Shown piece after piece: positions 34,151-53,006 of a DNA stretch of 64,000 nucleotides; the stretch's first letter is position 1, and every line of letters starts with the position of its first letter. The stretch is taken from NCBI GenBank assembly GCA_017643495.1, contig JAEPNK010000001.1:1469623-1533622 (forward strand). The letters run 5' to 3'. Both the position numbers and the translations under genes were made by a program. The notes under the pieces were generated by a model, which had not been told where the DNA came from, made no database searches, and saw nothing but the letters and a program-made list of their open reading frames with translations. Source of the DNA: Rhizobiaceae bacterium. GTDB lineage: Bacteria > Pseudomonadota > Alphaproteobacteria > Rhizobiales > Rhizobiaceae.

Positions 34151-35679
34151 TGGCAGCCGCAACAACTGTGCCGGTACTCGGCATTATCGACCAGTTACCG
34201 CTTCTTGTCGTGGTTGTGCCGATGATCGCAGCTCCGCTTTGCGTGCTTTTCGGAAACCGTACGATTGCCTGGATACTGACCTTTGCTGCCAGCCTGGCTT
34301 CATTGCTGTTTTCCCTGCATTTGCTGTTGCAGGTGATGGATGGCGATGTTGTTTCCTATTGGCTCGGCGGTTGGGGGCCAAAAGATGGCGGCATTGCCAA
34401 GGGAATTGAATATCGGATAGATGCGGCAAATGCCTTCGTGTTGGTGCTCATATCCCTGATTTCAACAATAGTGCTGCCTTATGCCCGTCGCAGCATCGAG
34501 TTTGAAATAACCAAAGTCAGCCACACGCTGTTTTACTGTTGCTATCTGCTTTGTTTCACAGGACTGTTGGGTGTGGTCGCAACAGGCGACGCATTCAATG
34601 TTTTCGTGTTTCTCGAAATTTCTTCCCTTTCCACCTACGTGCTGGTTGCCATGGGAGCCGAACGGGACAAGCGTGCGCTCACGGCAGCATATGATTATCT
34701 CATACTCGGTACCATCGGCGCCACTTTCTTTGTGATCGGTATCGGTTTTCTCTATTCGGCAACCGGAACGCTCAACATGGAAGAGCTTTCAGTCAGGTTG
34801 CCGGAACTGGGCACCAACCGGACAGTCCAGGTAGGGTTTGCGTTCGTGGTTGTTGGCATGGGACTGAAGGCGGCATTCTATCCGCTTCATCTCTGGCTTC
34901 CCGGAGCCTATACATTTGCCCCGTCCGTGGTAACGGCCTTTCTTGCCGGAACCGCCACAAAAGCTGCAATCTATGTCCTGCTGCGGTTTCTCTTCACGGT
35001 GTTCAATCCGGAGATGGTGTTCAACACGGACGCACTTTCCTATCTGTTGATACCACTGGCTGTACTGGCCATGTTTGCCGGCTCGCTAATCGCTGTTTTC
35101 CAGACAGAGTTGAAGCGTCTCTTGGCTTATTCTTCAGTGGCACAAGTCGGATACATGGCGCTCGGTATCGGTTTTCTGAGCACTACCGGTGTCACGGCAA
35201 CCATGGTTCACCTTTTCAACCACGGCATCACAAAGGCAGCCCTGTTTCTGGTAGTCGGTGCCTATGTATTGAGAGCCGGTACAAGCTTTACGGATCGCCT
35301 GGCCGGACTGGGCCGTCAAATGCCGTGGACAAGTGCAGCATTTGTAATAGGCGGCCTCAGTTTGATTGGCGTGCCGGGTACCGCAGGTTTCATCTCGAAA
35401 TGGGTGTTGTTGCAGGCCGCGCTGGAAAAAGACTGGTGGTGGATGGGGCTGCTGATCGTTGCATCATCGCTGCTTGCGGTCATCTATGTTTGGCGGATTG
35501 TGGAAATCCTGTACCTGCAACAACCCCGAGCCGGGAAGGAAATTGCTGAAGCTCCTCTCTCAATGCTGGTCCCGATATGGATACTGGCCATTGCCTGCAT
35601 TTGGTTCGGGTTTGCAACTGAGATGACGATCGGTGCTTCAGAAACAGCGGCCAACAGCCTGATCGGGGGACGGTCATGA
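34150..35679 (+). CDS. mrpD: Mrp antiporter subunit D (first large antiporter-like subunit)
   Basis: 509-residue polytopic protein of the NuoL/M/N-MrpA/D family, about 14 spans. Proton-path residues are visible: FVFLEISSLSTYVLVAMGAE (Glu near 153), MGLKAAFYPLHLWLPGAY (Lys near 240), GTATKAAIYVLLRF and NHGITKAALF. Its closeness to MrpD is from the LHLWLPGAY pattern. Start ATG 34150 overlaps mrpC. Confidence 0.92.
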   Translation: MAAATTVPVLGIIDQLPLLVVVVPMIAAPLCVLFGNRTIAWILTFAASLASLLFSLHLLLQVMDGDVVSYWLGGWGPKDGGIAKGIEYRIDAANAFVLVLISLISTIVLPYARRSIEFEITKVSHTLFYCCYLLCFTGLLGVVATGDAFNVFVFLEISSLSTYVLVAMGAERDKRALTAAYDYLILGTIGATFFVIGIGFLYSATGTLNMEELSVRLPELGTNRTVQVGFAFVVVGMGLKAAFYPLHLWLPGAYTFAPSVVTAFLAGTATKAAIYVLLRFLFTVFNPEMVFNTDALSYLLIPLAVLAMFAGSLIAVFQTELKRLLAYSSVAQVGYMALGIGFLSTTGVTATMVHLFNHGITKAALFLVVGAYVLRAGTSFTDRLAGLGRQMPWTSAAFVIGGLSLIGVPGTAGFISKWVLLQAALEKDWWWMGLLIVASSLLAVIYVWRIVEILYLQQPRAGKEIAEAPLSMLVPIWILAIACIWFGFATEMTIGASETAANSLIGGRS

Positions 35680-37154
35680 TGGATGTCAATACTGCAATCC
35701 TGACCGCCATGGGCATTCCGTTGCTTGCCACGCTCAGCAATCTGATCCATCCCGATAGCGGGGGACGCGCCAATCTGCGGGACGGAATTACGTTGCTCGC
35801 CGCCATTGGCACCTTTGCCGCTGTTGTTTCAATCCTGTTTACAAATGGGGGAGCGCCTACCGAAACGTTATCCTTGTTTACCGTTTTGCCGGGTCTGGAT
35901 ATCGCATTTTCAATTGAACCTTTGGGGCTTGTCTTTGCCTTGATCGCGTCTGGTTTGTGGATTGTCACGCACCTCTACGGTATCGGTTACATGCGCGGCA
36001 ATGCAGAGAAAAACCATGCCCGTTTCTTTGCAGCCTTTTCCTTTTCCATCTTTGCAACGATCGGTATTGCCTTCTCGGCAAACATGTTTTCGCTGTTTGT
36101 TTTCTACGAAATCCTGACCCTCGCCACTTATCCCCTTGTTGCCCACAAGGGAACTGAAGAAGCCAAACGCGGTGCACGTGTTTACCTTGGTATCCTGCTT
36201 GGAACATCAATTGCCTTTCAGCTGACGGCGATTGTCTGGACTTATGTGATAGCCGGAACTCTGGACTTTACTCAGGGAGGCATTCTGGAAGGCAAGGTGA
36301 GTGCTGCGCTGGCGGCCGTACTGCTGGCGCTTTATGCATTTGGTATCGGCAAGGCAGCGCTCATGCCGTTTCACCGGTGGTTGCCCTCTGCAATGGTTGC
36401 GCCAACGCCGGTTTCGGCCTTGCTGCATGCCGTAGCGGTTGTGAAGGCTGGTGTCTTTACCATGTTGAAGGTCGGCATTTATGTATTCGGTATTGATTTC
36501 CTGGCTGAAACGGGTGCTTCGGAATGGCTGATGTGGCTGGCTGCATTCTCCATTCTTGTAGCATCAATTGTTGCCATGACGAAGGATAACCTGAAGGCAA
36601 GGCTTGCATATTCAACAGTCAGTCAGCTTTCCTACATAACCTTGGGAATGGCGTTGGCAACCTCCATGGGGGTAGTCGGTGGCGGGCTTCATATTGTGAT
36701 GCATGCCTTCGGAAAGATCACGCTGTTCATGTGTGCAGGCGCGATTTATGTGGCAACGCACAAGACCGAGATCAGGCAAATGACAGGGCTTGGCAGGCTC
36801 ATGCCGTTCACCTTCGGGGCTTTCCTTGTCGGTTCCCTGTCAATCATTGGCCTGCCGCCTCTGGGGGGATCCTGGAGCAAGTGGTTGCTGATGATTGCGG
36901 CTGCCGATACTGGTCAGCTTGTCATGATAGCAGTGTTGATGGTCAGTTCGCTGCTGAATGTTGCCTATTTGCTGCCAATTGTTGCCAAGGGATTCTTCCT
37001 GAATGATCCGCAGAATGACAATTCGGAAGGTATTCGGGAAGCTCCCTTCTGGTGCGTTGCGCCACCAGTGCTGACAGCCCTTGGCTGTATTGTATTGTAT
37101 TTCGCATCTGGTGATATTCAGGCATTCCTGATGCCAATCGGGGAGGGAAATTGA
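35676..37154 (+). CDS. Second large antiporter-like subunit (MrpA/MrpD family)
   Basis: 492 residues, about 14 spans. Conserved Glu in FVFYEILTLATYPLVAHKG, then GIGKAALMPFHRWLPSAMVA and the HAVAVVKAGVFTMLKVGIY helix, closer to the N-terminal part of MrpA/NuoL than to MrpD. It could replace the missing full-length MrpA together with the DUF4040 subunit. It overlaps mrpD at its start and the small-protein gene at its end (ATGA). Confidence 0.9.
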   Translation: MMDVNTAILTAMGIPLLATLSNLIHPDSGGRANLRDGITLLAAIGTFAAVVSILFTNGGAPTETLSLFTVLPGLDIAFSIEPLGLVFALIASGLWIVTHLYGIGYMRGNAEKNHARFFAAFSFSIFATIGIAFSANMFSLFVFYEILTLATYPLVAHKGTEEAKRGARVYLGILLGTSIAFQLTAIVWTYVIAGTLDFTQGGILEGKVSAALAAVLLALYAFGIGKAALMPFHRWLPSAMVAPTPVSALLHAVAVVKAGVFTMLKVGIYVFGIDFLAETGASEWLMWLAAFSILVASIVAMTKDNLKARLAYSTVSQLSYITLGMALATSMGVVGGGLHIVMHAFGKITLFMCAGAIYVATHKTEIRQMTGLGRLMPFTFGAFLVGSLSIIGLPPLGGSWSKWLLMIAAADTGQLVMIAVLMVSSLLNVAYLLPIVAKGFFLNDPQNDNSEGIREAPFWCVAPPVLTALGCIVLYFASGDIQAFLMPIGEGN

Positions 37155-37501
37155 TGGCCCGGAAAGCTGAAGACAGCACGAAAGATTATCCGGCACTCGG
37201 ACGAAAACTGTTGTGGCTCGACAACATGAAAAATGTCAACCGCATTGTCTATGGTTTGTACGGATTGTGTGCCGTTCTGTTTCTTGCCGACTTCTTCTAC
37301 AAGAAAAAAACCTATGTAGCGATTGAGAACTTTCCAGGTTTCTATGCCCTGTACGGGTTTGTCATGTGTGCAGCTCTGGTGATTTGTGCACGTGGAATGC
37401 GTATTTTCCTGATGCGCGACGAGAAATATTACGCTCCCAAAGATGTGGAGTCAGAACCGTTTCCGGAATCCGACATGGAGCGGGAGACTGTTCATGACTG
37501 A
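37154..37501 (+). CDS. Unrecognised small membrane protein of the Mrp operon
   Basis: 115 residues; not one of the classical MrpA-G subunits. The N-terminal 30 residues are charged, two hydrophobic spans follow (about residues 36-53 and 66-84) separated by KKKTYVAIENFPGF, and the C-terminal 25 residues are acidic. ATG 37154 is preceded by GGGAGGG (37141-37147) and overlaps the previous stop; its own stop overlaps the next gene by eight bases. Its position between two antiporter subunits suggests it is part of the complex. Function unknown. Confidence 0.82.
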   Translation: MARKAEDSTKDYPALGRKLLWLDNMKNVNRIVYGLYGLCAVLFLADFFYKKKTYVAIENFPGFYALYGFVMCAALVICARGMRIFLMRDEKYYAPKDVESEPFPESDMERETVHD

Positions 37502-39188
37502 ATATTTCCCGCCGTTTCTCGTCTATGTGATTGGCGCAATTGTTCTGCCTTTCCTGCCAAATGATGGCCGAAGGGCAAGCTTGCTGCTTGTTGTGCCGTT
37601 GATCGGTGCATCGATGATCTGGTCAATGCCGGAAGGCATGCACGGCTTGATGGTCCTTGCCGGCGTTGAGATGAATTTCCTGCGGGTCGACAAACTCTCG
37701 ACCATTTTTGGACTGGTCTTCTCCCTCGCGGCATTTCTTTCACTTCTGTATGCATGGCATGTACGCGACACGATCCAGCAAGTTGCAACACTATTGTACG
37801 CAGGTTCCGCCATAGGTGCGGTATTTGCCGGTGATCTGGGGTCCCTGTTCATCTTCTGGGAAGGTACTGCGATTGCATCCGTTTTCCTCATATGGGCGCG
37901 CAGAACCGAAGGGGCATACCATACGGGTATGCGTTATCTGATAATCCAGATCGCTTCCGGTGTCATTCTGCTGGCTGGCGCTGTTCTTTTCTACCGTGAT
38001 ACAGGGTCTCTTGCATTTGAAAAGATGACGCTGGGCAGCCTTGGTACCTGGCTTATCTTCCTTGCTTTCGGGATAAAATGTGCGTTTCCGCTACTGCATA
38101 ACTGGTTGCAGGATTCCTATCCGGCAGCAACGGTGACCGGCACTGTCATTCTCTCATCGTTCACCACAAAACTTGCCGTTTATGCATTGGCGCGCGGATT
38201 TCCCGGTACGGAAATGCTGATTTATATCGGGGCGACAATGACCCTGTTCCCGATCTTTTATGCTGTGATTGAAAATGACCTGCGTCGCGTTCTTGCCTAT
38301 TCCCTCAACAACCAGCTTGGCTTCATGGTTGTGGGTATCGGTATCGGAACCGAACTTTCGCTGAATGGTACTGCGGCCCATGCCTTCGCCCACATTCTCT
38401 ACAAGTCGCTTCTCTTCATGAGTGTTGGCGCTGTCCTGTTTAGAACCGGGACTGCCAAGGGATCCGAACTTGGCGGGCTGTACCGTACCATGCCATTGAC
38501 AATGATTTTCTGTGTTATCGGCGCGGCTTCAATTTCCGCTTTCCCATTGTTTTCGGGCTTCGTCACCAAATCCCTGATCCTGTCGGATGCAGCTCACGAA
38601 GGATATTACATTGTCTGGGGAATTTTGCTGTTTGCATCCGCAGGTGTGTTTCACCATTCAGGAATTAAGATTCCCTATTTTGCATTTTTTGCCCATGACA
38701 GCGGATTGAGGCCCAAAGAGGCGCCTAAACACATGCTCTGGGCAATGGGGATTACCGCATTCCTGTGTGTTGCCATTGGCGTTTATCCCGAGCCGCTTTA
38801 TGCCTTGTTACCCTACGAAGTGGAGTATGTACCTTACACAACAACGCACGTGATAACGCAGCTCCAGCTGCTGTTTTTCTCGGCATTGGCCTTCACTGTT
38901 TTGATGCGTACCGGGATTTATCCGCCAGAGCTCAAATCGGTCAATCTTGATTTCGACTGGACCTATCGCAAACTGTTTCCTGCAATATTGCGTCATGCAG
39001 CAAATTTTGTGTCCACGGTCATGGCTGCAGGGTCACACTTCATCCGGCGCAAACGCGAAACGGTGATCCGGGGGCTTTACCAGAGTCATGGCCCGGAAGG
39101 GCGCATGGCAAAGGTTTGGCCAACCGGATCGATGGTGCTTTGGATTGCAATCATTCTCAGTGCCACACTGATCGTGAATTTTTTCTGA
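37494..39188 (+). CDS. Third large antiporter-like subunit (MrpD/NuoN family)
   Basis: 564 residues. The antiporter fold spans about residues 1-470: FIFWEGTAIASVFLIWARR (Glu near 123), FGIKCAFPLLHNWLQDSYP (Lys near 195) and AHAFAHILYKSLLFM. A further 90 residues form an extra soluble segment and one last span. ATG 37494 is chosen over upstream codons because it gives the usual short N-terminus. Ends the operon, 24 bp from a convergent CoA-transferase gene. Confidence 0.9.
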   Translation: MTEYFPPFLVYVIGAIVLPFLPNDGRRASLLLVVPLIGASMIWSMPEGMHGLMVLAGVEMNFLRVDKLSTIFGLVFSLAAFLSLLYAWHVRDTIQQVATLLYAGSAIGAVFAGDLGSLFIFWEGTAIASVFLIWARRTEGAYHTGMRYLIIQIASGVILLAGAVLFYRDTGSLAFEKMTLGSLGTWLIFLAFGIKCAFPLLHNWLQDSYPAATVTGTVILSSFTTKLAVYALARGFPGTEMLIYIGATMTLFPIFYAVIENDLRRVLAYSLNNQLGFMVVGIGIGTELSLNGTAAHAFAHILYKSLLFMSVGAVLFRTGTAKGSELGGLYRTMPLTMIFCVIGAASISAFPLFSGFVTKSLILSDAAHEGYYIVWGILLFASAGVFHHSGIKIPYFAFFAHDSGLRPKEAPKHMLWAMGITAFLCVAIGVYPEPLYALLPYEVEYVPYTTTHVITQLQLLFFSALAFTVLMRTGIYPPELKSVNLDFDWTYRKLFPAILRHAANFVSTVMAAGSHFIRRKRETVIRGLYQSHGPEGRMAKVWPTGSMVLWIAIILSATLIVNFF

Positions 39189-39212: not shown

Positions 39213-41153
39213 TTATTCGGCGGCCTTGATCATCTGGATGTAGGCTGCCGCCTCTTTGCGCGTCTCGAAAATATGGGGTGAGATTGAACGCTGTTTCAGG
39301 TCCTCACCTAGTTTCTGACGCAGGAATGCACTGGTCGTGTATGCAGTCGATGTAAGGTAATAATCATATTCAAGTTGCGAAAGCACATTGGCAAACCGGC
39401 TTGCAAGCCTTGGTGAAATGGAAACACCATCATAGTTGGAAATGATGTTCACCTTCTTTCCAAGCTGGGAGAAAAACGCATTTGCAGCATCAGAGAAGTT
39501 TCCGAGTTCCTCGGAGTTCTCGATATCAAGTCCGCTCATGTTGCTGTAAACAATGTCGTTCAGCTCATCATAGACAAACCTGTCCATCAGCGGGATGTCG
39601 AGCAACTGCTTGCGCAGTTTCATGGATCGTGTTTCGAACAGGCGCGAGTCCATGAGCTTTGGATGGTTCACGACCGGTTCAAAATCCATGTGAGCCAGAA
39701 TGTCTTTCTCAATGTCTATGCCCGGTGCAACTTCGCTGAGTTCCATCCCGTCCGGAGTGAGTTGGAAGACGCATCGCTCGGTCACATACAAAACATCCTT
39801 GCCCTGTTCCGCGCCGTAGCTGCCGTTGAATGTTATCTGTTCAACATCGGCTATCAGTTTTTTGGCGCGTCCTTCATTCTTGATGCGCAGTGTCCCGTCA
39901 CCGGTTTCAACTTCAAGTCCGCCAGCAGTGAAGGTTCCTACAAAAATCACCTTGCGCGCATTTTGGGAGATGTTGATGAAACCTCCGGCGCCTGCAAACC
40001 TGTTCTTGAAACGGCTGACATTGACATTGCCGTGCTGGTCCGTTTCAGCCATCCCGAGACAGGCAAGATCCAGTCCTCCGCCATCATAAAAATCGAACTG
40101 CTGGTTTGTTTGTATGATTGCATTGGCATTAATGGCAGCGCCAAAGTCCAGGCCCGATTGGGGGACGCCGCCAAGCACACCTGCTTCTGTTGTCAGCGTT
40201 ATGCAGTCAATGATGTTTTCTTCATTGGCAACGGCCGCTACCCCTTCCGGCATGCCGATCCCCAGATTGACCACACCGTTGACCGGAAGTTCCATGGCGG
40301 CACGTCTGGCAATGATTTTGCGCTCACTCATTTTCATGGGAGCATCCTGACCAATAACCCCTCGCATGCGTCCGGCAAAGCCATGATGATATGAGGTCTG
40401 ATAGGTCTGCTTGTGTTCATCCGGTTCCGCCACGACAACGCAATCAACCAGGTTGCCGGGAACGATGACTTCCTTAGGGTTAAGGGAGCCTGGAGCAGCA
40501 ATCCGCTCCACCTGTGCGATAACCAGCCCGCCACTGTTTTTTGCTGCCATGGCAATCGACAGCATGTCGAGTGTCAATGCTTCACGTTCCATCGTGATAT
40601 TGCCGTGTGTGTCGGCGGTTGTTCCGCGGATGAGGGCAACATCAACCGGAATGGAATGGTAGAACAGCCATTCCTCTCCGGAGAGTTCCTTGACTTCGAC
40701 CAGCGGTTCGGTTGTCCGGGAATTGATGGCTCCGCCAGATTGGCGGGGGTCGACAAAAGTGCGCAACCCGACCTTTGAAAACATCCCCGGTTTCCCTGCT
40801 GCGATATCCCGGTAAAGCTGAGAAATACAACCAAGGGGCAAATTATATGCCTCGATATCCTCATTTACGGCCATCGCGCCAAGTTTGGGAACCAGTGACC
40901 AGTGCCCGCCAATGGCACGTTTCACGAGGCCCGGTTTGGCAAGGCGGTTCAAACCCTGATCCTTGCCGTCTCCGGGTGCCGCAGCAAAAAGAAGGGATAT
41001 GTTCTTGGGTTCCTGATGAGTGAGATAGCGCTCCTCGATCCCGCGCAAGAGGCACTCTGGCGTGCCAATTCCGACAAACCCGGAAACGCATACAGTGTCT
41101 TCGTCGCTGATGGTTGCTATGGCATCAGCGAGTGATACGACCTTGTCGACCAT
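39213..41153 (-). CDS. Family I CoA transferase (propionate/acetate CoA-transferase-like) with extra C-terminal domain
   Basis: 646 residues. The alpha (1-275) and beta (276-520) halves of a 3-oxoacid/propionate CoA-transferase are fused. The catalytic Glu is in TTEAGVLGG (residue 323), forming the covalent CoA thioester. Residues about 530-646 are an extension absent from the shorter enzymes I know of this family (about 520 residues), with an alpha/beta pattern ending in FETRKEAAAYIQMIKAAE. Start ATG 41153 follows AGGAGGAG. It is 12 bp after phaC and last in the PHA operon, which suggests it activates hydroxy acids to CoA thioesters for polymerisation. Confidence 0.85.
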   Translation of the reverse strand: MVDKVVSLADAIATISDEDTVCVSGFVGIGTPECLLRGIEERYLTHQEPKNISLLFAAAPGDGKDQGLNRLAKPGLVKRAIGGHWSLVPKLGAMAVNEDIEAYNLPLGCISQLYRDIAAGKPGMFSKVGLRTFVDPRQSGGAINSRTTEPLVEVKELSGEEWLFYHSIPVDVALIRGTTADTHGNITMEREALTLDMLSIAMAAKNSGGLVIAQVERIAAPGSLNPKEVIVPGNLVDCVVVAEPDEHKQTYQTSYHHGFAGRMRGVIGQDAPMKMSERKIIARRAAMELPVNGVVNLGIGMPEGVAAVANEENIIDCITLTTEAGVLGGVPQSGLDFGAAINANAIIQTNQQFDFYDGGGLDLACLGMAETDQHGNVNVSRFKNRFAGAGGFINISQNARKVIFVGTFTAGGLEVETGDGTLRIKNEGRAKKLIADVEQITFNGSYGAEQGKDVLYVTERCVFQLTPDGMELSEVAPGIDIEKDILAHMDFEPVVNHPKLMDSRLFETRSMKLRKQLLDIPLMDRFVYDELNDIVYSNMSGLDIENSEELGNFSDAANAFFSQLGKKVNIISNYDGVSISPRLASRFANVLSQLEYDYYLTSTAYTTSAFLRQKLGEDLKQRSISPHIFETRKEAAAYIQMIKAAE

Positions 41154-41165
41154 TGACTCCTCCTC

Positions 41166-42398
41166 TTACTCCTTCCCGTTCGCAGCTTTGCTTTTGCTTT
41201 TGCGCCGCGTCGTTTTTTTCTTTTGTACCTGTGCTCCCGGATTGGTTTTATTGTGCTTGCTTGTCAGCCATTCGCACAACCCGCCTGCAACAACCCCTTG
41301 GGCTTTCTTGCTGACAAATACACCAACATGTCCTCCCGGAAATCCGATCTCCTCATAGAGTTCCGGTTTCACGAACTTTCCCAGTGCCTTGGAACAGCTC
41401 ACCGGAATGATGTGGTCTCTCATCGCGAAGATATTGAGCACCGGACAGGAAATTGCCGACAGGTCCACTTTTTGCCCGGAAACCTCGAATGTACCTTTGA
41501 CCAGGCGGTTGTCACGATAAAGTTCATTCAGCCATTGCCTGGCAGCTTCGCCCGGATGGTCCGGTCGGTCTGATATCCATTTTTCCATGCGAAGGAAATT
41601 CAGCATGGCCGCCTCGTCACCCTGCATCTCGGCAAGCCCGAGATTGTACTTCGTCATGCTGTTGATCGGAGTCAGGGAAGAAAAGACCGCACCTGTCATG
41701 GCACCCGGCAACATGCCATAGGTCTCAACAATCAAATCCACATCTTCCTGGCTGAGGTTTCGGGTCCAGTGATTGAGAAACCCCTCTCCACGCCAGAATT
41801 TGTCCGGTTCGCCGTGAAAATCTATGGGGGTTATTGCAAGTGCCAGCCCGGCAAACAGTTCGGGACTTAGTGCAACAAGGGCCGCTGCGAATGTGCCTCC
41901 TTCGCAAATGCCGAACATGTTTACAGGCTTCTTGCCATTCTTCTCGTAAACATACTCGACACAGGAACCGAGATAGAGGTCTATGTAATCATCAAAACCC
42001 AGATATTGGTCAGCCCGTGTCGGGTTCCCCCAGTCCACCACATAGACATCAATACCTTCATTCAGCAGGTTCTGAACCAGCGAACGGTCGGACTGGAGGT
42101 CAATCATTGTCTGTCGCCCGAACAGGCCATAGCAAATGATTATGGGCGGAAGGCCGGATTTCTTTTCTGACAACGGGCGATAGTGAAAGAGCCGTACCTT
42201 GTCTATCTCGAAGACCACATCGTGCGGTGTTTCAGCAATCGCAATATCGTCTGCCTTTACCCGGGAAAGATAGGAGCTTGAACGGATTGCCTTTGCCCCG
42301 GCCTCAATCATTTGGGTCCAGGCAATTGCCCATGCGTCAGCGGCAGCCCGTGCGGGGTCGGAAACTTCCTTTTCTTGTGGCTTTTCCTCGTTCTTCAT
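41166..42398 (-). CDS. phaC: Class III polyhydroxyalkanoate synthase, catalytic subunit PhaC
   Basis: 410-residue alpha/beta-fold polymerase. The lipase-like box is GICEGG with the catalytic Cys (near 164); the partner Asp lies in AMRDHIIP (near 335) and the His in GGHVG (near 362). Length of about 370-410 and the adjacent phaE define class III, unlike the roughly 600-residue class I enzymes usual in rhizobia. The last about 30 residues are Lys/Arg-rich (KKKTTRRKSKSK) and may bind nucleic acid or polymer surfaces. The start overlaps the phaE stop (ATGA). Confidence 0.92.
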   Translation of the reverse strand: MKNEEKPQEKEVSDPARAAADAWAIAWTQMIEAGAKAIRSSSYLSRVKADDIAIAETPHDVVFEIDKVRLFHYRPLSEKKSGLPPIIICYGLFGRQTMIDLQSDRSLVQNLLNEGIDVYVVDWGNPTRADQYLGFDDYIDLYLGSCVEYVYEKNGKKPVNMFGICEGGTFAAALVALSPELFAGLALAITPIDFHGEPDKFWRGEGFLNHWTRNLSQEDVDLIVETYGMLPGAMTGAVFSSLTPINSMTKYNLGLAEMQGDEAAMLNFLRMEKWISDRPDHPGEAARQWLNELYRDNRLVKGTFEVSGQKVDLSAISCPVLNIFAMRDHIIPVSCSKALGKFVKPELYEEIGFPGGHVGVFVSKKAQGVVAGGLCEWLTSKHNKTNPGAQVQKKKTTRRKSKSKAANGKE

Positions 42399-43183
42399 GA
42401 CTTGAGTGCAGCCACCTCGCGTTTCAGCTTGCGCACTTCCCGTCTCAATTCGTGAACAATCTTTGTCAGATCATCAATCTCGGACCGGGTTGGCATCTGG
42501 TAAGCTTCTGACCATGCTTCCGCCATGTCCCGTTGTCTTGCCTTTATTTCCATTGAGGCACGCAGCAAGCGTTTTTGTGCATCCATGAACTCAGGCGATT
42601 TTTGTGTGTCGAGCAGTTCGGCATTTGCAGCGGCTAGCCATGCATCCAGCGCACCTTTGACATTGCCTGCCTGAAGGTCCTCAAGAGTATGGTTTTCACT
42701 GTATTTCTTGAATGCCCTTGTCCATGCGTCCTGCATGACTTTCGACATGTCTGCTGCAGCTTCGCTGTAGTCAAGTGACTCACGCCAGGCATTGGCAGCA
42801 TCCTGTTGGGGCATGGCCAAATCCGCAAACCGAGGTCCTTGTGCAATCGTACTCAGAATCTTGCGCAGTTCTTCCGGCGCGTAGCGGGTCCAGTTCGTGG
42901 GTTCCAGCATTGCAAACAAGGCGTCATTGCCATTTTGCCACGCACTTGCATCAAAGCCATTCTGAGACATGAAGCTGCTCGGGTCCCAGGCAGGAGCCCA
43001 TGATTTTATGAAATCATTCCAGGCTTCGAGATGTTCTGTACCTTTTGTTTCGCTTTCACTCGTCACCTGGCCAAGGGACTTCTGAAATTCCTTGGCAACT
43101 TCTGCCTGTGCCTTGAAAAATGCCTCCTGGCTTTCCTGCCAGATGTTCATCATTTCGCTGAACGGATTTTCATTTTTGGCCAT
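42395..43183 (-). CDS. phaE: Class III PHA synthase subunit PhaE
   Basis: 262 residues, helical, without catalytic residues; needed by class III PhaC for activity. The N-terminus MAKNENPFSEMMNIWQES and the C-terminal coiled segment (about 228-262, RREVRKLKREVAALKS) fit the PhaE family, whose C-terminal box contacts PhaC. Start ATG 43183 follows GGGAGG. It overlaps phaC, giving coupled synthesis of the two subunits. Confidence 0.9.
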   Translation of the reverse strand: MAKNENPFSEMMNIWQESQEAFFKAQAEVAKEFQKSLGQVTSESETKGTEHLEAWNDFIKSWAPAWDPSSFMSQNGFDASAWQNGNDALFAMLEPTNWTRYAPEELRKILSTIAQGPRFADLAMPQQDAANAWRESLDYSEAAADMSKVMQDAWTRAFKKYSENHTLEDLQAGNVKGALDAWLAAANAELLDTQKSPEFMDAQKRLLRASMEIKARQRDMAEAWSEAYQMPTRSEIDDLTKIVHELRREVRKLKREVAALKS

Positions 43184-43212
43184 CTGACCTCCCTTGTGCC
43201 CAAACCGGCTTG

Positions 43213-44367
43213 TTATAGCGCCTGCGTGTAGATTTCGAGTGCCGCATCGTAAGTCATCTCGCGCGGGTTGTTCACAAGAAGCCTGGTTTGCTTCATGGCA
43301 TCCTCGGCGAGCATTGGAAGGTTATTGTGATTGACCCCGACTTCCGAAAGCTTCGCTTCCATGCCCAGTTCAGGTCCCAGTTTTTTGAAGCCATCAATCA
43401 TGCCGGCGCCGATTTCACCTGTGGATTTGCCGGCAAGTTCCGGGAAGATGATCGGCGCAATCTCGGCATAAAGTTCGGAAGCGCTTTCCATGTTGAATTC
43501 CAGAACATACGGCAATACGAGCGCATTGGAGAGGCCATGGGGAACCTTGAAATGTCCGCCAAGGGGGTAGGCAAGGGCATGCACAGCCGCTACCGGGGCA
43601 TTGGCAAATGCCATGCCTGCCAGCATCGAACCGAGAAGCATGTTGGATCGGGCTTCCTTGTTTTTGCCATCGGTACAGGCGGTGCGGATGCTGCCACCCA
43701 ATAGCTGCAATGCCTGTCGTGCCAGTGTATCGGACACAATGTTCTTTTTGTGGGCAGAGGTGTAAGCCTCAATCGCATGCACCATCGCGTCAATGCCTGT
43801 GGCCGCAGTGACATTCGCAGGCAGGCCAAGTGTCAATTCGGCATCAAGAATGGCCCAGTCAGGTAGCAGTTGGTGGGACACCACCCCTTTTTTCTCGCTC
43901 TTTCCTGTTGTGACGATCGAGATTGGCGTTACTTCTGATCCGGTGCCGGCCGTAGTGGGTGCCAGCACCATGGGCAGGCGGTTGTCCTTTACCAAGCCCA
44001 CTCCGTACATCTCAGCGATGGGTTGGTCTGAGCCGACGAGAACAGCAATCAGCTTTGCAGTATCCATTGAGGAACCGCCACCCACGGAAACCACACCGTC
44101 AATACCGGCTTGTTTGCATTCCTCGACAGCAGCAAGGATCATTTGCTCGGGAGGATCCGCGACTACATCATCAATAATGTGAACATCAACATTGCTTGCC
44201 TTAAGGCCGTCCAGCGCAGCTTGGGCAAGGCCGAGTTCCAGTATTATCTTGTCCGTCACAAAACCAATCTTGCGACACCCCATCCCGGCCATTATTTCAC
44301 CGATCTTTGAAGTGGCGCCGACTTCACTGAGTACGGATTTTGTTGTCTGGAATGTGAATTCTTGCAT
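43213..44367 (-). CDS. Iron-dependent alcohol dehydrogenase
   Basis: 384 residues, the two-domain group III ADH fold. NAD-binding SVGGGSSMDTAKLIAVL near 95-111; metal ligands in GIDAMVHAIEAY (Asp and His near 194-198) and in HALAYPLGGHFKVPHG (two further His near 263-280). It reduces an aldehyde to an alcohol, or the reverse. Relatives include 4-hydroxybutyrate, 1,3-propanediol and lactaldehyde dehydrogenases. The gene lies 29 bp before phaE in the same direction, so its product is probably linked to PHA monomer supply. Confidence 0.88.
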   Translation of the reverse strand: MQEFTFQTTKSVLSEVGATSKIGEIMAGMGCRKIGFVTDKIILELGLAQAALDGLKASNVDVHIIDDVVADPPEQMILAAVEECKQAGIDGVVSVGGGSSMDTAKLIAVLVGSDQPIAEMYGVGLVKDNRLPMVLAPTTAGTGSEVTPISIVTTGKSEKKGVVSHQLLPDWAILDAELTLGLPANVTAATGIDAMVHAIEAYTSAHKKNIVSDTLARQALQLLGGSIRTACTDGKNKEARSNMLLGSMLAGMAFANAPVAAVHALAYPLGGHFKVPHGLSNALVLPYVLEFNMESASELYAEIAPIIFPELAGKSTGEIGAGMIDGFKKLGPELGMEAKLSEVGVNHNNLPMLAEDAMKQTRLLVNNPREMTYDAALEIYTQAL

Positions 44368-44392
44368 GGAAAATCTTTCCCTTGTTCGCGGT

Positions 44393-46069
44393 CTAGCAAT
44401 CCTCGAACGACTTCATGCTTTTCAGCCGTTCGGTAAGTTTCATGTTTTCAGAATAATCGACAGGACAATCGATGAGTGAAACCCCACCGTCACCGAGGGC
44501 AGTTTCAAGAATCGATTCCAGGTCTTCTGTTTTCTCGACCTTGTAGCCCTTGGCACCAAAAGCTTCGGCGAACTTGACGAAGTCCGGATTGCCGACGTCA
44601 ATATTGCTTTTGCGTCCGTAATGACGAAGCTGGTGCCATTCGATCAAGCCAAGCTTGTTGTCGTTGAACATCAGGATGGTGATATTGAGCCCCAGCCGTA
44701 CCGCAGTCTCAATTTCCTGGTTGTTCATCATGAAGCCACCGTCTCCGCAAACGGCCAGGACATTTCTGTCCGGGTAAACCAGTTTTGCGGCAATGGCGCC
44801 AGGCAATGATATGCCCATAGAGGCAAATCCGTTGGAGATGATGCATGTATTGGGGCGTTCAGCCTGATACATCCGTGCCATCCACATTTTGTGCGCGCCC
44901 ACATCCGATATCACGATATCTTCTGCTGCGAGCACTTTCCGTATCCCGCAGATAATGCGTTGCGGTTTCACAGGATAGGCTGTGTCGTCAGCATGCGCCT
45001 TGAGTTCCTTTACAATGCTGGAGCGAAGTTTCTTCATTGCCGGAATGGGTTCGCGTTCGCACTGGGCACCAATCCGTGCCATGGAATCCTTCAGATCCCC
45101 GATTACGCCCGCTTCCACAATGTAGTTCGTGTCGACCTCGGCAGGGGACCCGTCCACGTGGATGATTTTCTTGTCGTGATTGGGGTTCCAGTGGCCGGGG
45201 TCATACTCCACAAGGTCATACCCGACACAAATCACCAGATCTGCCGCATCAATGCCGAAAGCCACAAGGTCATGTGCCTTAAGGCCGACCGTGCCGAGAC
45301 TTAGCGGATGCGATGAAGGAATGACGCCCTTGGCCATGAACGTGGTTGCAACAGGTGAATTGATTGCTTCGGCAAACTCGACCAATTCTTTCGAGGCGCC
45401 GTGTCTGATAATGCCATTGCCCGCGATGATGATCGGGTTTTGGGCATTGGAGATCATTTCTGCAACCTGCCGGCATTTGCCCTTGGCTGCCTGTGGCGGC
45501 ATCGGAGACTGGACTTTCAGTGGCTCCAGGTTTTCAACTTCCATCTCGGCGATATTTTCCGGGAAATCAATAAAGGTCGCCCCCGGCTTTTCCGATTGGG
45601 AAAACTTGAACGCCTTGCGCACGATTTCGGGAACGATTTCCGGTTCGCGAATTTGGGTGCTGTATTTGGTGATGGGTTCAAAGAGATTGACCAGATCGAG
45701 GACCTGATGGCTTTCCTTGTGCATTCGCGTGGTCGCGCCCTGACCTGCAATGGCTACCATCGGTGCGCGATCCATATTGCCATCGGCAACCCCCGTAACA
45801 AGGTTTGTCGCACCAGGACCCAGCGTGGACATGCAAACCCCGGCTCGTCCGGTCAGCCTGCCGTATACATCCGCCATGAAGGCAGCACCCTGCTCATGGC
45901 GTGTGACTATGAAGCGGATATTGCTGTCAAGGAGGGCGTCCATCACCCCGATATTCTCTTCCCCCGGTATGCCGAATATGTACTCAACCCCTTCATGCTC
46001 CAAACATTTTACCAAGAGTTGCGCTGCGCGCATTTTCCCTTGCACGGGCTGCGTATCTTTGTTCGGCAA
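44393..46069 (-). CDS. Thiamine-diphosphate-dependent enzyme, acetolactate-synthase-like
   Basis: 558 residues with three ThDP-enzyme domains: pyrimidine-binding (Glu in TRHEQGAAFMADVYGR, near 58), a central FAD-like domain (about 195-330), and a diphosphate domain with GDGGFMMNNQEIETA (near 438). TTG at 46069 has AGGAGG five bases upstream and is the best start. It resembles the catalytic subunit of acetolactate synthase, but no regulatory subunit gene (ilvH) follows. First gene of the Fe-ADH/phaEC/CoA-transferase operon. It may instead carboligate or decarboxylate another 2-oxo acid. Confidence 0.82.
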   Translation of the reverse strand: MPNKDTQPVQGKMRAAQLLVKCLEHEGVEYIFGIPGEENIGVMDALLDSNIRFIVTRHEQGAAFMADVYGRLTGRAGVCMSTLGPGATNLVTGVADGNMDRAPMVAIAGQGATTRMHKESHQVLDLVNLFEPITKYSTQIREPEIVPEIVRKAFKFSQSEKPGATFIDFPENIAEMEVENLEPLKVQSPMPPQAAKGKCRQVAEMISNAQNPIIIAGNGIIRHGASKELVEFAEAINSPVATTFMAKGVIPSSHPLSLGTVGLKAHDLVAFGIDAADLVICVGYDLVEYDPGHWNPNHDKKIIHVDGSPAEVDTNYIVEAGVIGDLKDSMARIGAQCEREPIPAMKKLRSSIVKELKAHADDTAYPVKPQRIICGIRKVLAAEDIVISDVGAHKMWMARMYQAERPNTCIISNGFASMGISLPGAIAAKLVYPDRNVLAVCGDGGFMMNNQEIETAVRLGLNITILMFNDNKLGLIEWHQLRHYGRKSNIDVGNPDFVKFAEAFGAKGYKVEKTEDLESILETALGDGGVSLIDCPVDYSENMKLTERLKSMKSFEDC

Positions 46070-46245
46070 ATCAACCTCCTAATAATGGATCAGACTGGTG
46101 AAATGGCCAGCCCGATCAAAAGTTCCTCCATACATATTTGTTAAGCTTAAAGATCATATGTCAACCAGAGCGAAGTCATCAAAACGGCTAACTCGCCATT
46201 TTAATTGATATTTCACGTATCTGGAGCGGGGTGCGTGCAAAAATT

Positions 46246-46280
46246 TTGTGCGGCGCACAAAAAAATGTTGCAATGCACAA
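46246..46280. promoter_or_regulatory. Candidate PhaR operator pair upstream of the phasin gene
   Basis: Two 15-bp inverted repeats: TTGTGC-GGC-GCACAA (46246-46260, perfect) and TGTTGC-AAT-GCACAA (46266-46280). The second covers a possible -35 element (TTGCAA, 46269) with TATATA at 46290. Same architecture as the site in front of phaR. They lie in the shared divergent region, so they could also affect the PHA operon on the minus strand. Confidence 0.62.
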
Positions 46281-46363: not shown

Positions 46364-46747
46364 ATGACTACTAAGAAAATTGACGGCACTGAAGCCATGG
46401 AAAAATCTCAGGAATACGTTTCAAAAGGTATCACGAATTCTGAGAAGGTTGTTGAAAGCATGATCGAATACAATGCGGCCTGCTTCAAGGGCGGCGAAGC
46501 GATCGCAACCAAAATGTACGAAAACTTCATTTCAAATGTCGCTGCCTCTTTCGATGGCGTGAAGGCTTTGAACAAGACCAGTGACGTTGCTGAGTTCTAC
46601 AAGGTTGCCTCTGCAAATGTTTCTGCTGCTGCCGAGCGTTTCAATGACCAAACCAAAGGCATTACCGAGCTTTCCAGCAAGGTCATGAAAGAAACCGGTG
46701 AAGCCGGACGGCTTGCCTATTCGAAAAGCTTTCCGCTGAGCATGTAA
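46364..46747 (+). CDS. Phasin (PHA granule-associated protein)
   Basis: 127 residues, helical and amphipathic, without signal peptide. The segment SMIEYNAACFKGGEAIATKM and the following VAEFYKVASANVSAAAERFN repeat are typical of the PhaP/phasin_2 family, which coats polymer granules. ATG 46364 follows AAAGGA. Divergent from the PHA synthase operon and followed by a strong terminator and phaR. It is expected to be repressed by PhaR when no polymer is present. Confidence 0.88.
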   Translation: MTTKKIDGTEAMEKSQEYVSKGITNSEKVVESMIEYNAACFKGGEAIATKMYENFISNVAASFDGVKALNKTSDVAEFYKVASANVSAAAERFNDQTKGITELSSKVMKETGEAGRLAYSKSFPLSM

Positions 46748-46823: not shown

Positions 46824-46858
46824 CCGCCAACCCCTTGTACCGGGGTTGGCGGTTTTTT
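46824..46858 (+). terminator. Rho-independent terminator of the phasin gene
   Basis: Eleven-pair perfect stem CCGCCAACCCC / GGGGTTGGCGG (46824-46834 with 46842-46852), 7-nt loop and six T. Confidence 0.95.
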
Positions 46859-46918
46859 GTTGCGCACAATTGCAGCCAAGGCTTTTCAAGCAGTGTCATT
46901 CGCGCTAGGTTTTTCATT

Positions 46919-46933
46919 TGTTGCAATGCAACA
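46919..46933. promoter_or_regulatory. Candidate PhaR autoregulatory operator
   Basis: Perfect inverted repeat TGTTGC-AAT-GCAACA, ending 17 bp before the proposed phaR start. It shares TGTTGCAATGCA with one phasin-promoter site. A related TGTTGC/GCACAA pair without spacer overlaps the terminator end at about 46859-46870. Confidence 0.62.
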
Positions 46934-46950
46934 TGGTTGTGAGGTGCGCG

Positions 46951-47568
46951 TTGACAAAGAACCAGGAAACACAAAAGGGAGATGGGTCGTCGTCGCCGCT
47001 TCTGATCAAGAAATATCCGAACCGCAGACTCTATAATACATCTACCAGTTCATACATCGTGCTTGATGACATTGTGAAACTGGTAAAGGACGGAGAAGAG
47101 TTTGTCATTCAGGATGCCAAGACCGGGGATGACATTACCCGTAGCATTCTCAACCAGATCATTTTCGAACGGGAGACCAAGCCGTCCAATTACCACTTTC
47201 CGCTGGAAGTGCAGAAACAGCTGATTGGCATGTATGACGACACTTATGGGCGTCTCATTCCTGATTATCTCAAGGAGTCGATGAAACTGTTCAGCAATGA
47301 GCGCGAAAAAATGTCTGAAGCGGTCGAAGACAACATTGGCCGCAATACCAGGGCGATGATGGAATTCTCGCAAAGCATGGCTCGCCAAAACGCCGAAATG
47401 TTCAGAAGATCCTGGGAAATGTTTACTTCGGCCATGCCCGGCAATCCTGATACAGGACCGGAAGCAGATGCTGAGGTGAAAAAGAACATGTCACGTGAGG
47501 AGGAGCTTGATGAAATCCAGGAGAAGATTGAGAGCCTGCAGGCTCGTCTCAAATCCTTGAAAGAGTAA
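46951..47568 (+). CDS. phaR: PHA synthesis repressor PhaR
   Basis: 205 residues. The N-terminal PHB_acc_N domain begins KKYPNRRLYNTSTSSYIVLDD-like (Tyr-Pro-Asn-Arg-Arg-Leu-Tyr-Asn-Thr motif near 22-30) and covers to about residue 85. The PHB_acc domain (TYGRLIPDYLKESMKLFS) and a C-terminal coiled coil (about 178-203) follow. TTG 46951 is chosen because TGAGG lies six bases upstream and longer starts would translate the operator palindrome at 46919-46933. PhaR binds DNA or nascent polymer and so links phasin synthesis to granule formation. Confidence 0.92.
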   Translation: MTKNQETQKGDGSSSPLLIKKYPNRRLYNTSTSSYIVLDDIVKLVKDGEEFVIQDAKTGDDITRSILNQIIFERETKPSNYHFPLEVQKQLIGMYDDTYGRLIPDYLKESMKLFSNEREKMSEAVEDNIGRNTRAMMEFSQSMARQNAEMFRRSWEMFTSAMPGNPDTGPEADAEVKKNMSREEELDEIQEKIESLQARLKSLKE

Positions 47569-47598: not shown

Positions 47599-48495
47599 AT
47601 GGAAATGCCTTACAGACTGAAAAAACCAGTCAAAGCCTACTCAAAACATTATCACCTTGGCCTGGGGTTTCACGGATTCCACCGCATCAATTATCTCGAA
47701 TGGGGTGATGTCGAGAAGTTCAGTACCCAGGAAACGCTGGTTTGCGTTCACGGGTTGACCCGAAATGCGCGGGACTTCGATTTCTTTGCCAGCAAACTGT
47801 GCAACCAATATCGGGTTGTCTGTCCAGATGTCGTCGGTCGCGGTGACAGTGATCATTTGCTGGATGACGAGAGTTACAATTACTTCCAGTATAACGCAGA
47901 CATGAATGCGTTGCTTTCCCGGCTGGGGGTAACCGAAGTGAACTGGATAGGTACGTCCATGGGAGGGATCATAGGCATGGTCCTAGCTTCTGTGCCGCAA
48001 TCTCCCATACGCCGTCTGGTGATCAATGATATCGGACCCGAGGTCTCACGGGATGCCCTGATGTCGATTGCCGCCTATATAGGAAAATCCGAGGAATTTG
48101 CATCGCAAAAGGATGTCGAGGATTATCTGCGTAAAATCTATCCCGAGTTCGGTCCGATGACGGATGAGGACTGGGCGCACATGGCAAAATACTCCAGCAA
48201 GCGCACAGAGCACGGCACATGGAAGATGAAAGTGGACAGCCGTGTAGGCGATGCCTTCCGGGATTCCATATCGTATTTTAACGTGGACATGTGGGACACA
48301 TGGGAGCGGATTTCCTGCCCTGTATTGGTGCTGCGTGGCAAGGAATCCACCTTTCTGTCCGAAGAAGTGGCATCAAGAATGATGACTTGCGGCCCTGAAA
48401 CAACCATCGTCGAATTTGACGGATGCGGTCATACACCGACCTTGCGCAATGATGAACAGGTCAGTGTGATTGAGGACTGGTTGGCCCATAGCTGA
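47599..48495 (+). CDS. Alpha/beta hydrolase
   Basis: 298 residues. Oxyanion HG in VHGLTRNARDFDFFA (near 50) and nucleophile elbow GTSMGG (Ser near 118); catalytic His in DGCGHTPTL (near 279). At the position where close relatives usually carry the acid (RGxxSD), this protein has RGKESTF, so the third triad residue must come from another position or be a nearby Glu. It follows phaR by 30 bp and may be co-transcribed. A polymer or ester hydrolase role is possible but not shown. Confidence 0.82.
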   Translation: MEMPYRLKKPVKAYSKHYHLGLGFHGFHRINYLEWGDVEKFSTQETLVCVHGLTRNARDFDFFASKLCNQYRVVCPDVVGRGDSDHLLDDESYNYFQYNADMNALLSRLGVTEVNWIGTSMGGIIGMVLASVPQSPIRRLVINDIGPEVSRDALMSIAAYIGKSEEFASQKDVEDYLRKIYPEFGPMTDEDWAHMAKYSSKRTEHGTWKMKVDSRVGDAFRDSISYFNVDMWDTWERISCPVLVLRGKESTFLSEEVASRMMTCGPETTIVEFDGCGHTPTLRNDEQVSVIEDWLAHS

Positions 48496-51111: not shown

Positions 51112-51687
51112 ATGGACAGGCTGGTTCGGAAACTGGCAAATTTCATGGCCTATCTGGGAGGAGGGGTTCTTCTTGCCTTGATAGGGATTACTTGCGTATC
51201 GGTAATCGGTCGAACACTGAATACGCTTGGCCACTCAGACTTTGTTTCGGCATTCACGCCATTCCTTGCCCCTTTGCTAACCGGTTTTGGCCCAATCCTG
51301 GGTGATTTCGAATTGGTGGAAGCCGGGGTTGCTTTCTCCATCATGGCGTTTCTTCCATTGTGTCAACTGAACCGCGGGCATGCCACAGTAGAACTGGTAA
51401 CCGGATTGTTCCCGCAAGGCATCAACCGGCTGTTGGCACTGCTCTGGGAAACCGTTTTTGCTTTTGTACTGATAGTAATTGCCTGGCGTCTCTATGTTGG
51501 GACGACAGACAAGATGCGCTATGGCGAAACCACTTTCATGTTGCAGTTTCCCGTTTGGTGGGGATACGCGGCTTGTGCCTTTGCTGCGGTGATTGCATGC
51601 ATGGTGGCGGTTTATTCAGTGTATTTGCATATCCGCGATGTTGCCGCCCGCGATGAATACACTGTTTCCGGAGATGTGCAGCAATGA
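51112..51687 (+). CDS. dctQ: TRAP transporter small membrane subunit DctQ
   Basis: 191 residues with four predicted spans and the DctQ pattern around EAGVAFSIMAFLPLCQLNRGHA (Glu near 68). ATG 51112 is preferred since GGGGGGCAGG stands just upstream. It overlaps dctM at its end (ATGA). It forms the membrane complex with DctM. Confidence 0.9.
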   Translation: MDRLVRKLANFMAYLGGGVLLALIGITCVSVIGRTLNTLGHSDFVSAFTPFLAPLLTGFGPILGDFELVEAGVAFSIMAFLPLCQLNRGHATVELVTGLFPQGINRLLALLWETVFAFVLIVIAWRLYVGTTDKMRYGETTFMLQFPVWWGYAACAFAAVIACMVAVYSVYLHIRDVAARDEYTVSGDVQQ

Positions 51688-53006
51688 CCAGTCTTGAAGT
51701 CGGAATTCTGTCGCTGCCCGTTCTCTTGTTGCTGATTTTCCTGCGCATGCCGATCGGGCTGGCCATGCTGGTCTGTGGTCTGGGCGGGACCATGTGGCTC
51801 ACGGGCGGTTCTCTGGTTGTGCTCGCCAAGCTTAAAAACGAAACCTATTCAACCTTTTCCGATTATTCGCTTTCCATCGTGCCGCTGTTCCTTTTGATGG
51901 GGCAGTTCGCGACTTTGGGCGGCATGTCGACTTCCCTGTTCAAGGCAGCGGAAACCTGGCTTGGGCATCGCAAGGGTGGTGTCGCAATGGCCGCGGTGGG
52001 CGCCTGTGGCGGTTTTGGAGCGATCTGTGGCTCTTCCCTCGCAACAGCTGCAACCATGGGGCAGGTCGCTTTGCCCGAATTGCGTCGTTACGGCTATTCT
52101 GGCGGGCTTTCAACCGCCACGCTGGCTGCAGGTGGAACTCTTGGAATTCTCATTCCCCCCTCCGTTGTTCTGGTGATTTATGCGATCCTTACCGAGCAGA
52201 ATATCGCCAAACTGTTTCTTGCCGCATTCATCCCAGGTATTCTTGCGGCACTCGGCTACATTATCACAATTTCGATCTATATCCGGGTAAATCCAGGAGA
52301 CGCCCAATTACGTGAGCGTGTCCCGTATTTCGAGCGGTTCAAGGCGCTTTTTGATGTCTGGCCGGTGTTGGTGGTGTTCTTTCTCGTGGTTGGCGGTATT
52401 TACCTGGGCTGGTTCACCCCGACTGAAGCGGCCGCAATTGGTGCGGCAGGGACAGGCATCATTGCCCTTGTAAATGGGGGGCTCAGCCGAAAGTCGCTTG
52501 CAGACGCCATCCTGAAAACAGCATCCAATACGGCGATGATTTTCATCATCATCCTGGGTGCCGGTTTCTTCAATTCATTCCTTGCCCTCAGTCAGTTGCC
52601 ACAGGAAGTGTCAACGATAATCGTGGAGCAGGGGTTTAATGCATGGATCGTCCTCATCATCATCCTGTTGCTGTATCTGGTCCTGGGTTGCTTTATGGAT
52701 TCACTGTCCATGGTGTTGCTAACGATCCCGATTTTCTTTCCGATCATATCCGCGCTGGATTTTGGCCTGACCATGGAAGAAACCGCAATCTGGTTTGGTA
52801 TCCTAGTTTTGATCGTCGTTGAGGTCGGCCTGATTACGCCGCCGGTTGGCATGAACCTGTTTGTAATCAACGCAATGGCAAGGAACACCCGGATTGTGGA
52901 AACCTACAGGTCCGTACTGCCCTTTGTGGCATCCGATATCATCCGGACTGCAATCCTTATAGCGTTCCCCGGGATAACCCTGTTTTTGCTGAGACTTGTT
53001 TACTGA
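51684..53006 (+). CDS. dctM: TRAP transporter large membrane subunit DctM
   Basis: 440 residues, about 12-13 spans. Family features are GFGAICGSSLATAATMGQVA (near 111-130), GGTLGILIPPSVVLVIYA and LITPPVGMNLFVI near 390. This is the ion-coupled translocator for the substrate bound by DctP, driven by sodium. Full length. The benzoate-CoA ligase gene begins 30 bp downstream. Confidence 0.94.
   Translation: MTSLEVGILSLPVLLLLIFLRMPIGLAMLVCGLGGTMWLTGGSLVVLAKLKNETYSTFSDYSLSIVPLFLLMGQFATLGGMSTSLFKAAETWLGHRKGGVAMAAVGACGGFGAICGSSLATAATMGQVALPELRRYGYSGGLSTATLAAGGTLGILIPPSVVLVIYAILTEQNIAKLFLAAFIPGILAALGYIITISIYIRVNPGDAQLRERVPYFERFKALFDVWPVLVVFFLVVGGIYLGWFTPTEAAAIGAAGTGIIALVNGGLSRKSLADAILKTASNTAMIFIIILGAGFFNSFLALSQLPQEVSTIIVEQGFNAWIVLIIILLLYLVLGCFMDSLSMVLLTIPIFFPIISALDFGLTMEETAIWFGILVLIVVEVGLITPPVGMNLFVINAMARNTRIVETYRSVLPFVASDIIRTAILIAFPGITLFLLRLVY

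Follow-up and report, generated by a model that had tools for sequence, protein, structure and literature searches.

Where does a polyhydroxyalkanoate (PHA) synthase obtain its monomer when neither phaA nor phaB lies in its operon? This question is raised by a locus of a Rhizobiaceae bacterium (assembly GCA_017643495.1, contig JAEPNK010000001.1), contained in a stretch of 64,000 nucleotides (positions 1,469,623 to 1,533,622) that is called the window below. Five genes follow one another there on the minus strand, namely a thiamine diphosphate (ThDP) enzyme, an iron-dependent alcohol dehydrogenase (Fe-ADH), phaE, phaC and a CoA-transferase, at distances of 25, 29, -4 and 12 bp. An earlier note on this DNA had described this order and spacing, and had stated that no phaA or phaB is in the operon; all of this is correct, and each gene is an open reading frame at the coordinates listed below. 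The interval that it drew around the five genes also stands, but the unit is bigger. Genes for a phasin, PhaR and an alpha/beta hydrolase, which are on the opposite strand and read away from the five-gene block, belong to it too, as is seen from the conservation of the cassette. The best reading of its function, to which we give a probability of roughly 0.55 from sequence comparison, is a route from 2-oxoglutarate via 4-hydroxybutyrate (4HB) to a polymer. The broader claim, that some aldehyde is converted into a hydroxy acid and then into a polymer, is probably right. The features are as follows.

39213 to 41153, minus strand: Pct/YdiF-type CoA-transferase, 646 amino acids, extended at the C-terminus by about 130 residues (454 bits to YdiF, aligned Glu)
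41166 to 42398, minus strand: phaC, class III-like, 410 amino acids, overlapping phaE by 4 bp (TIGR01836, 320.2 bits, cut-off 365.3; Cys, Asp and His motifs)
42395 to 43183, minus strand: phaE, 262 amino acids (PF09712, 66.4 bits, cut-off 25.7)
43213 to 44367, minus strand: group III Fe-ADH, 384 amino acids, proposed succinic semialdehyde / 4HB dehydrogenase (PF00465, PF25137)
44393 to 46069, minus strand: ThDP enzyme of the PRK08322 family, 558 amino acids, proposed 2-oxo acid (2-oxoglutarate) decarboxylase (NF006187, active-site residues, acetolactate synthase fold)
46246 to 46280, no strand: a pair of palindromes, TTGTGCGGCGCACAA and TGTTGCAATGCACAA, as candidate operator for PhaR (similar pairs in the seven intergenic regions inspected)
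46364 to 46747, plus strand: phasin, likely ATG at 46364 (listed open reading frame from TTG at 46205; PF09361, 41.4 bits, cut-off 24.9)
46918 to 47568, plus strand: phaR repressor (TIGR01848, 120.9 bits, cut-off 109.45)
47599 to 48495, plus strand: alpha/beta hydrolase, proposed polymer or oligomer hydrolase (PF00561; conserved in the cassette)

Conservation of the cassette

The earlier note named a comparison of gene order across genomes as a check, and the block indeed recurs. All five genes are together in 12 alphaproteobacterial loci besides the window (in L021 the ThDP gene is cut by the contig end; L numbers denote loci taken from the compared genomes, and G000 is the genome of the window). 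Chance proximity is ruled out by these loci, and a conserved operon is as good as certain. When 61 genomes were scanned, a close ThDP gene (at least 83% identity) turned up in the genome of the window and in 8 of the 11 others of its genus; the exceptions are G002, G007 (97% complete) and G009 (99% complete). At each of the nine loci with this gene the Fe-ADH is adjacent and the phasin divergent. L007 is without phaE and L006 without phaR, and each of these two loci is truncated by a contig end. With phaC as the query 10 loci were obtained, eight of them with all five genes and two partial (L029, and L030, a 34% archaeal match to phaC only). Further five-gene loci are in G010 (L039), G252, G356 and G065, and in G001, G003, G005, G006 and G008 the five genes were read across two overlapping stretches each. 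The carriers belong to Hyphomicrobiales (including Ahrensia), Amylibacter and another alphaproteobacterial family. At L029 (2828-9119), genes for a succinic semialdehyde dehydrogenase (SSADH), the hydrolase, PhaR, Fe-ADH, PhaE and PhaC are present, and no ThDP enzyme, CoA-transferase or phasin was found in the locus. In G065 (L126, 7273-17711), the cassette is preceded by genes for a TctA transporter and for a protein like 4-oxalomesaconate tautomerase (470.6 bits, cut-off 440).

The linkage to SSADH points to a substrate. Beyond the hydrolase, an aldehyde dehydrogenase (ALDH) over the SSADH cut-off (TIGR01780) is found in 5 of 11 cassette-type loci (L022, L023, L024, L025 and L029). All five were scanned and pass, with 692-711 bits against 646. 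L025 comes from Ahrensia sp. R2A130, a cultured strain that carries both cassette and SSADH. They are 74-88% alike, are 53-55% like the other SSADH of the window's genome and form a separate clade, so that they look like a dedicated gene. Because of this linkage, 2-oxoglutarate and 4HB are the best candidates for substrate and monomer. The genome of the window has its SSADH outside the cassette (671.6 bits); a cytochrome P450 gene (48551-49777, minus strand) occupies the position of SSADH in related loci. On the flanks of the window's locus lie subunits of an Mrp/NADH-dehydrogenase-type antiporter (35676-39188, plus strand) and a TRAP transporter (DctM; 51684-53006, plus strand).

The ThDP enzyme and its relatives

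The ThDP gene starts with TTG, which is preceded by AGGAGG, and its product has the domains TPP_enzyme_N, M and C. With 796.4 bits against a cut-off of 509 it matches NF006187/PRK08322, whose name "acetolactate synthase" is an annotation rather than a test of activity. It fails the AlsS model TIGR02418 (478.3 against 551.1 bits), and its predicted structure has the acetolactate synthase (ALS) fold (pLDDT 84.6, pTM 0.87).

According to an excerpt of PMC10418658, the 2-oxoglutarate decarboxylase of Microcystis (MaKGD) is active on 2-oxoglutarate and inactive on pyruvate, and the residues that surround ThDP and the substrate as docked are listed. By a numbering register, with no cyanobacterial sequence in the alignment, the window's enzyme keeps 11 of 13 of these decarboxylase residues (E50, V382, A384, H385, K386, A408, M410, D435, D462, L467 and Y531 in Microcystis numbering). 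The offset is near-constant, the window number being the Microcystis number plus 8, except for Glu50 at plus 9. Gln254 of the Microcystis enzyme is unplaced; placing it needs the reference sequence. The enzymes of L022-L028 keep 12 of the 13, K471 alone being missing (L021 is incomplete). No cyanobacterium is named among the 40 plasmid records listed of 732 matches.

The alignment of the active site has 44 rows, from which duplicates and rows of fewer than 500 residues are excluded. Most relatives are of two types, either DNGxYK with YGMIRWKQ or DVGAHK with YGLIxWKQ (L017, L066, L068 and L069 are exceptions), and the cassette enzymes are of the latter type with K471 changed to His. At the position of Lys394, five aligned ALS chains have A, A, Y, H and M, and at that of His479 they have Q, Q, Q, Q and K. 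A tree built from 32 of the 44 rows, with long outgroup branches, unites nine cassette rows in one clade (support 100/100). In it the closest partner of the G065 cassette enzyme is one from a Leisingera plasmid, which adjoins an ALDH (98/95). A reductase and an oxidase thus swap as partners of one type of ThDP enzyme, which would fit an aldehyde product.

Relatives outside PHA loci were viewed in 20 contexts. An ALDH adjoins the ThDP gene in 12 of them, and a glutamate enzyme is beside it in six: glutamate dehydrogenase in L038 (624.8 bits, cut-off 536), which leads directly into the ThDP gene, and a glutamate-synthase-domain protein in L035, L064, L067, L072 and L073. Neither kind of neighbour is found in six. 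The ALDH of L066, which overlaps the ThDP gene, bears the annotation SSADH, yet it stays under the model cut-off (610.1 against 730 bits), and the ALDHs of L032, L061, L065 and L067 pass no named model. The glutamate enzymes indicate 2-oxoglutarate as a likely substrate. Judged from the neighbours of the relatives, many PRK08322 genes called "acetolactate synthase large subunit" may make aldehydes. In the five loci with the glutamate-synthase-domain protein, the pair recurs in varying order, together with an ALDH except in L064.

Alcohol dehydrogenase and CoA-transferase

The Fe-ADH has the motifs GGGS (from residue 96), DAMVHA (193), VHALA (262) and PHGL (276). Its best NCBIfam models are ErcA, sulfoacetaldehyde reductase and lactaldehyde reductase, all below cut-off. 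Close orthologues (E<=1e-150) occur in 3 of 385 genomes of the class, every one inside the cassette. No protein over the cut-off of the 4-hydroxybutyrate dehydrogenase model NF058672 was found in any of 13 genomes.

The CoA-transferase matches CoA_trans (PF01144) with 113.3 bits against a cut-off of 23, and together with the aligned Glu this places it in family I. Its match to E. coli YdiF covers residues 5-511, and Glu323 aligns with YdiF Glu333, which we take to be the catalytic nucleophile. At E<=1e-180 it is found in 15 of the 385 class genomes, three of which have the cassette. The extra C-terminal part (39216-39620, minus strand) is conserved within the cassette and also elsewhere among alphaproteobacteria; when it was compared with Pfam in five pieces, four gave no match at E<=1 and the fifth was below cut-off. 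AlphaFold modelled the full-length protein poorly (pLDDT 50.6), with residues 521-600 fairly confident.

Synthase, hydrolase and candidate operator

PhaC is by family an alpha/beta hydrolase and carries GICEGG (from residue 163), RDH (327) and GGHVG (355). That it is a class III enzyme, as the earlier note held, is borne out in so far as class III is its best PHA synthase model, but it misses the TIGR01836 cut-off as well as those of class I (118.6 against 622.65 bits) and class II (75 against 855.4). Since all class cut-offs of NCBIfam are missed, we call it divergent and class III-like. PhaE passes PF09712 and fails TIGR01834 (73.3 against 154.95 bits). The hydrolase matches the short-chain PHA depolymerase model NF050089 weakly (60.5 against 300 bits), and PhaR passes TIGR01848.

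Between the divergent operons lie TTGTGCGGCGCACAA at 46246 and TGTTGCAATGCACAA at 46266. Palindrome pairs spaced 17-25 bp were found in all seven intergenic regions inspected. In the window, matches at two mismatches are not above chance (6 observed, 4.73 expected), so that the case for the palindromes rests on their conservation and not on their number. PhaR is predicted to bind at this pair. Upstream of phaR lies another sequence resembling these palindromes, TTTTGTTGCGCACAA (46855-46869, 2 mismatches), the third in all, which possibly serves autoregulation by PhaR.

Proposed route and its rivals

We infer the reactions and the monomer of the following route from what is observed, namely gene order, conservation, family matches, residues and the presence or absence of genes. 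The PHA locus would be self-contained, and its monomer would be drawn from the tricarboxylic acid (TCA) cycle and not from acetyl-CoA. The ThDP enzyme would decarboxylate 2-oxoglutarate non-oxidatively to succinic semialdehyde, which the Fe-ADH would reduce to 4HB. With a short acyl-CoA as donor, the CoA-transferase would form 4HB-CoA, PhaEC would polymerise it, and the phasin would coat the granule. Repression would be exerted by PhaR through the twin palindrome. For mobilisation, the hydrolase may release 4HB and the Fe-ADH re-oxidise it, and SSADH, which is linked to the cassette in some relatives and encoded elsewhere in the window's genome, would convert the semialdehyde to succinate. A cyanobacterial-type TCA bypass is not needed, since the E1 component of 2-oxoglutarate dehydrogenase (2-OGDH) is present in the genome.

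The earlier note had proposed a route of this general kind, and the conserved co-location, the aldehyde-consuming neighbours of the relatives (12 of 20), the decarboxylase-like active site and the want of a PhaB over the cut-off speak for it, with the reactions deduced. Its example, 2-oxoglutarate and 4HB, is the best candidate by SSADH linkage. The following observations weigh against it. The ThDP enzyme is also over the cut-off of one AlsS model, NF006378 (521.5 against 510 bits), and its closest solved structures are acetolactate synthases. K471, which makes the docked salt bridge to the 2-oxoglutarate carboxylate, is His479 in the window's enzyme, and Y465 is Leu473; the roles of K386 and K471 themselves derive from docking into a model and not from mutants (PMC10418658, in excerpt). 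The Fe-ADH fails NF058672 with 236 against 500 bits, two other Fe-ADHs of the window's genome fit this model better (362 and 360 bits, also below 500), and both Fe-ADH and CoA-transferase stay under the curated cut-offs of all NCBIfam models that they match. The CoA-transferase occurs without the cassette, in the stretches examined, in 12 of its 15 class genomes. No SSADH was found beside the hydrolase in 6 of the 11 loci (the window, L026, L027, L039, L112 and L113), the five linked SSADHs miss the narrower NF008415 cut-off (828), and 8 of the 20 non-PHA relatives are without an adjacent ALDH.

Some of these points would suit another monomer made by the same architecture, in which the ThDP enzyme decarboxylates a different 2-oxo acid and PhaEC polymerises the resulting hydroxy acid. 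Oxaloacetate (giving malonic semialdehyde and 3-hydroxypropionate, 3HP), 2-oxoadipate (5-hydroxyvalerate, 5HV) or a smaller acid (a lactaldehyde- or glycolaldehyde-type product) would be options, and we consider this rather unlikely. The change of K471 to His alters the substrate pocket, the best models of the Fe-ADH are, below cut-off, ErcA and the reductases of sulfoacetaldehyde and lactaldehyde, and most ALDHs near the relatives are not SSADHs by model; however, the cassette-linked ALDHs are over the SSADH cut-off, and the glutamate enzymes favour 2-oxoglutarate. As excerpted, PMC9107728 reports that the substrates of a Megasphaera Pct include 2- and 3-hydroxy acids of up to five carbons, 3HP among them, which helps this alternative, but not 5HV, which goes against it, nor 6-hydroxyhexanoate; 4HB is unlisted there. 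An ordinary 3-hydroxybutyrate (3HB) polymer, with the ThDP enzyme and Fe-ADH as a co-regulated carbon/redox valve that does not feed the synthase, is improbable in our judgement. Polymers of 3HB are a known product of class III synthases. Pct activates 3HB (PMC9107728, in excerpt), and the window's genome, which is 99.99% complete, has many short-chain dehydrogenase/reductase relatives of PhaB; however, no PhaB over the cut-off was found in it (best 264 against 302.1 bits), and of nine genus genomes searched, some of them incomplete, none has one. PhaB passes in G037, G038 and G040, the same three genomes that pass class I PhaC. In the window's genome the sole match of a class I PhaC search is the cassette phaC itself (117 bits); G004 and G005 have relatives that score 488 and 482 bits where the cut-off is 622.65, and G002 and G007, where the cassette ThDP gene is missing too, have no match. 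A 3HB polymer would also leave the lasting five-gene linkage and the linked SSADH unexplained.

Quite improbable, finally, is a true acetolactate synthase, whether unrelated to the monomer or feeding a hydroxylated polyester. In the latter version the Fe-ADH would reduce acetolactate at its 3-oxo group, the CoA-transferase would activate 2,3-dihydroxy-2-methylbutyrate and PhaEC would polymerise it, a chain that would be chemically complete because acetolactate is a 3-oxo acid. The names and cut-offs of NF006187 and NF006378, the ALS fold and the nearest structures agree with such an enzyme. However, Lys394 is in none of the five ALS chains and His479 is replaced by Gln in four and Lys in the fifth, the relatives adjoin ALDHs, and SSADH would be unexplained. 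Nor was acetolactate decarboxylase found in 13 genomes, the window's included, and acetoin formation was set aside on this ground.

A further step beyond the route from 2-oxoglutarate via 4HB to polymer is tentative: the cassette may be a natural operon dedicated to poly(4-hydroxybutyrate) (P4HB), in which 2-oxoglutarate/glutamate carbon is stored as a 4HB-rich or 4HB-only polyester and returned to succinate via SSADH. It may do so in bacteria for which an acetyl-CoA/PhaB route was not found.

Comparison with known systems

A route of the proposed kind is known mainly from genetic engineering. According to excerpts of PMC7147479, wild-type strains make 4HB copolymers from related precursors only, and P4HB from unrelated carbon is made in recombinants only; an excerpt of PMC8659255 names Hydrogenophaga pseudoflava and Bacillus cereus as natural exceptions and calls for elucidation of the H. 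pseudoflava pathway. The excerpts of PMC5160925, PMC11268599 and PMC9728866 hold nothing on the cassette operon, and no paper on it was found in the open-access PubMed Central literature, going by titles and abstract openings and partly by best matches only. A natural operon that unites the synthase with a complete monomer supply would make the question of natural 4HB polymers directly testable, supply matched enzymes for a medically used plastic and mean carbon storage that is tied to 2-oxoglutarate and nitrogen status rather than to acetyl-CoA.

Class III PhaEC resembles the cassette in having two subunits, with a PhaE family match and class III as the best PhaC model; however, PhaC and PhaE of the cassette are under the NCBIfam cut-offs and their monomer supply differs. 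The CoA-transferase is like the YdiF (E. coli) and propionate CoA-transferase type over the aligned region and Glu, and unlike it in the C-terminal part, which has no Pfam family over cut-off. In sucD-4hbD-orfZ of Clostridium kluyveri (PMC7147479, in excerpt), an alcohol dehydrogenase and a CoA-transferase lead from succinic semialdehyde via 4HB to 4HB-CoA, as proposed here, but there the semialdehyde is made from succinyl-CoA and a linked synthase is missing, whereas a ThDP decarboxylase is proposed for the cassette. The cyanobacterial operon of 2-oxoglutarate decarboxylase and SSADH (ogdA-ssaD, A2770-A2771; excerpt of PMC5160925) shares with the cassette the active-site residues counted above and, in some relatives, the SSADH linkage. 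Unlike it, the cassette has His for K471, its partners are a reductase and a synthase, and 2-OGDH is in the genome. In an engineered route to P(3HB-co-4HB) in Synechococcus sp. PCC 7002 (ogdA, gbd1, cat2 and phaABEC; excerpts of PMC7147479 and PMC8659255), the functions of 2-oxoglutarate decarboxylase, 4HB dehydrogenase, CoA-transferase and class III-type PhaEC are combined, as is proposed for the cassette. However, that route is artificial and assembled from several organisms, whereas the cassette is a natural single operon that, without phaA or phaB in the operon, is accompanied by phasin, phaR and the hydrolase.

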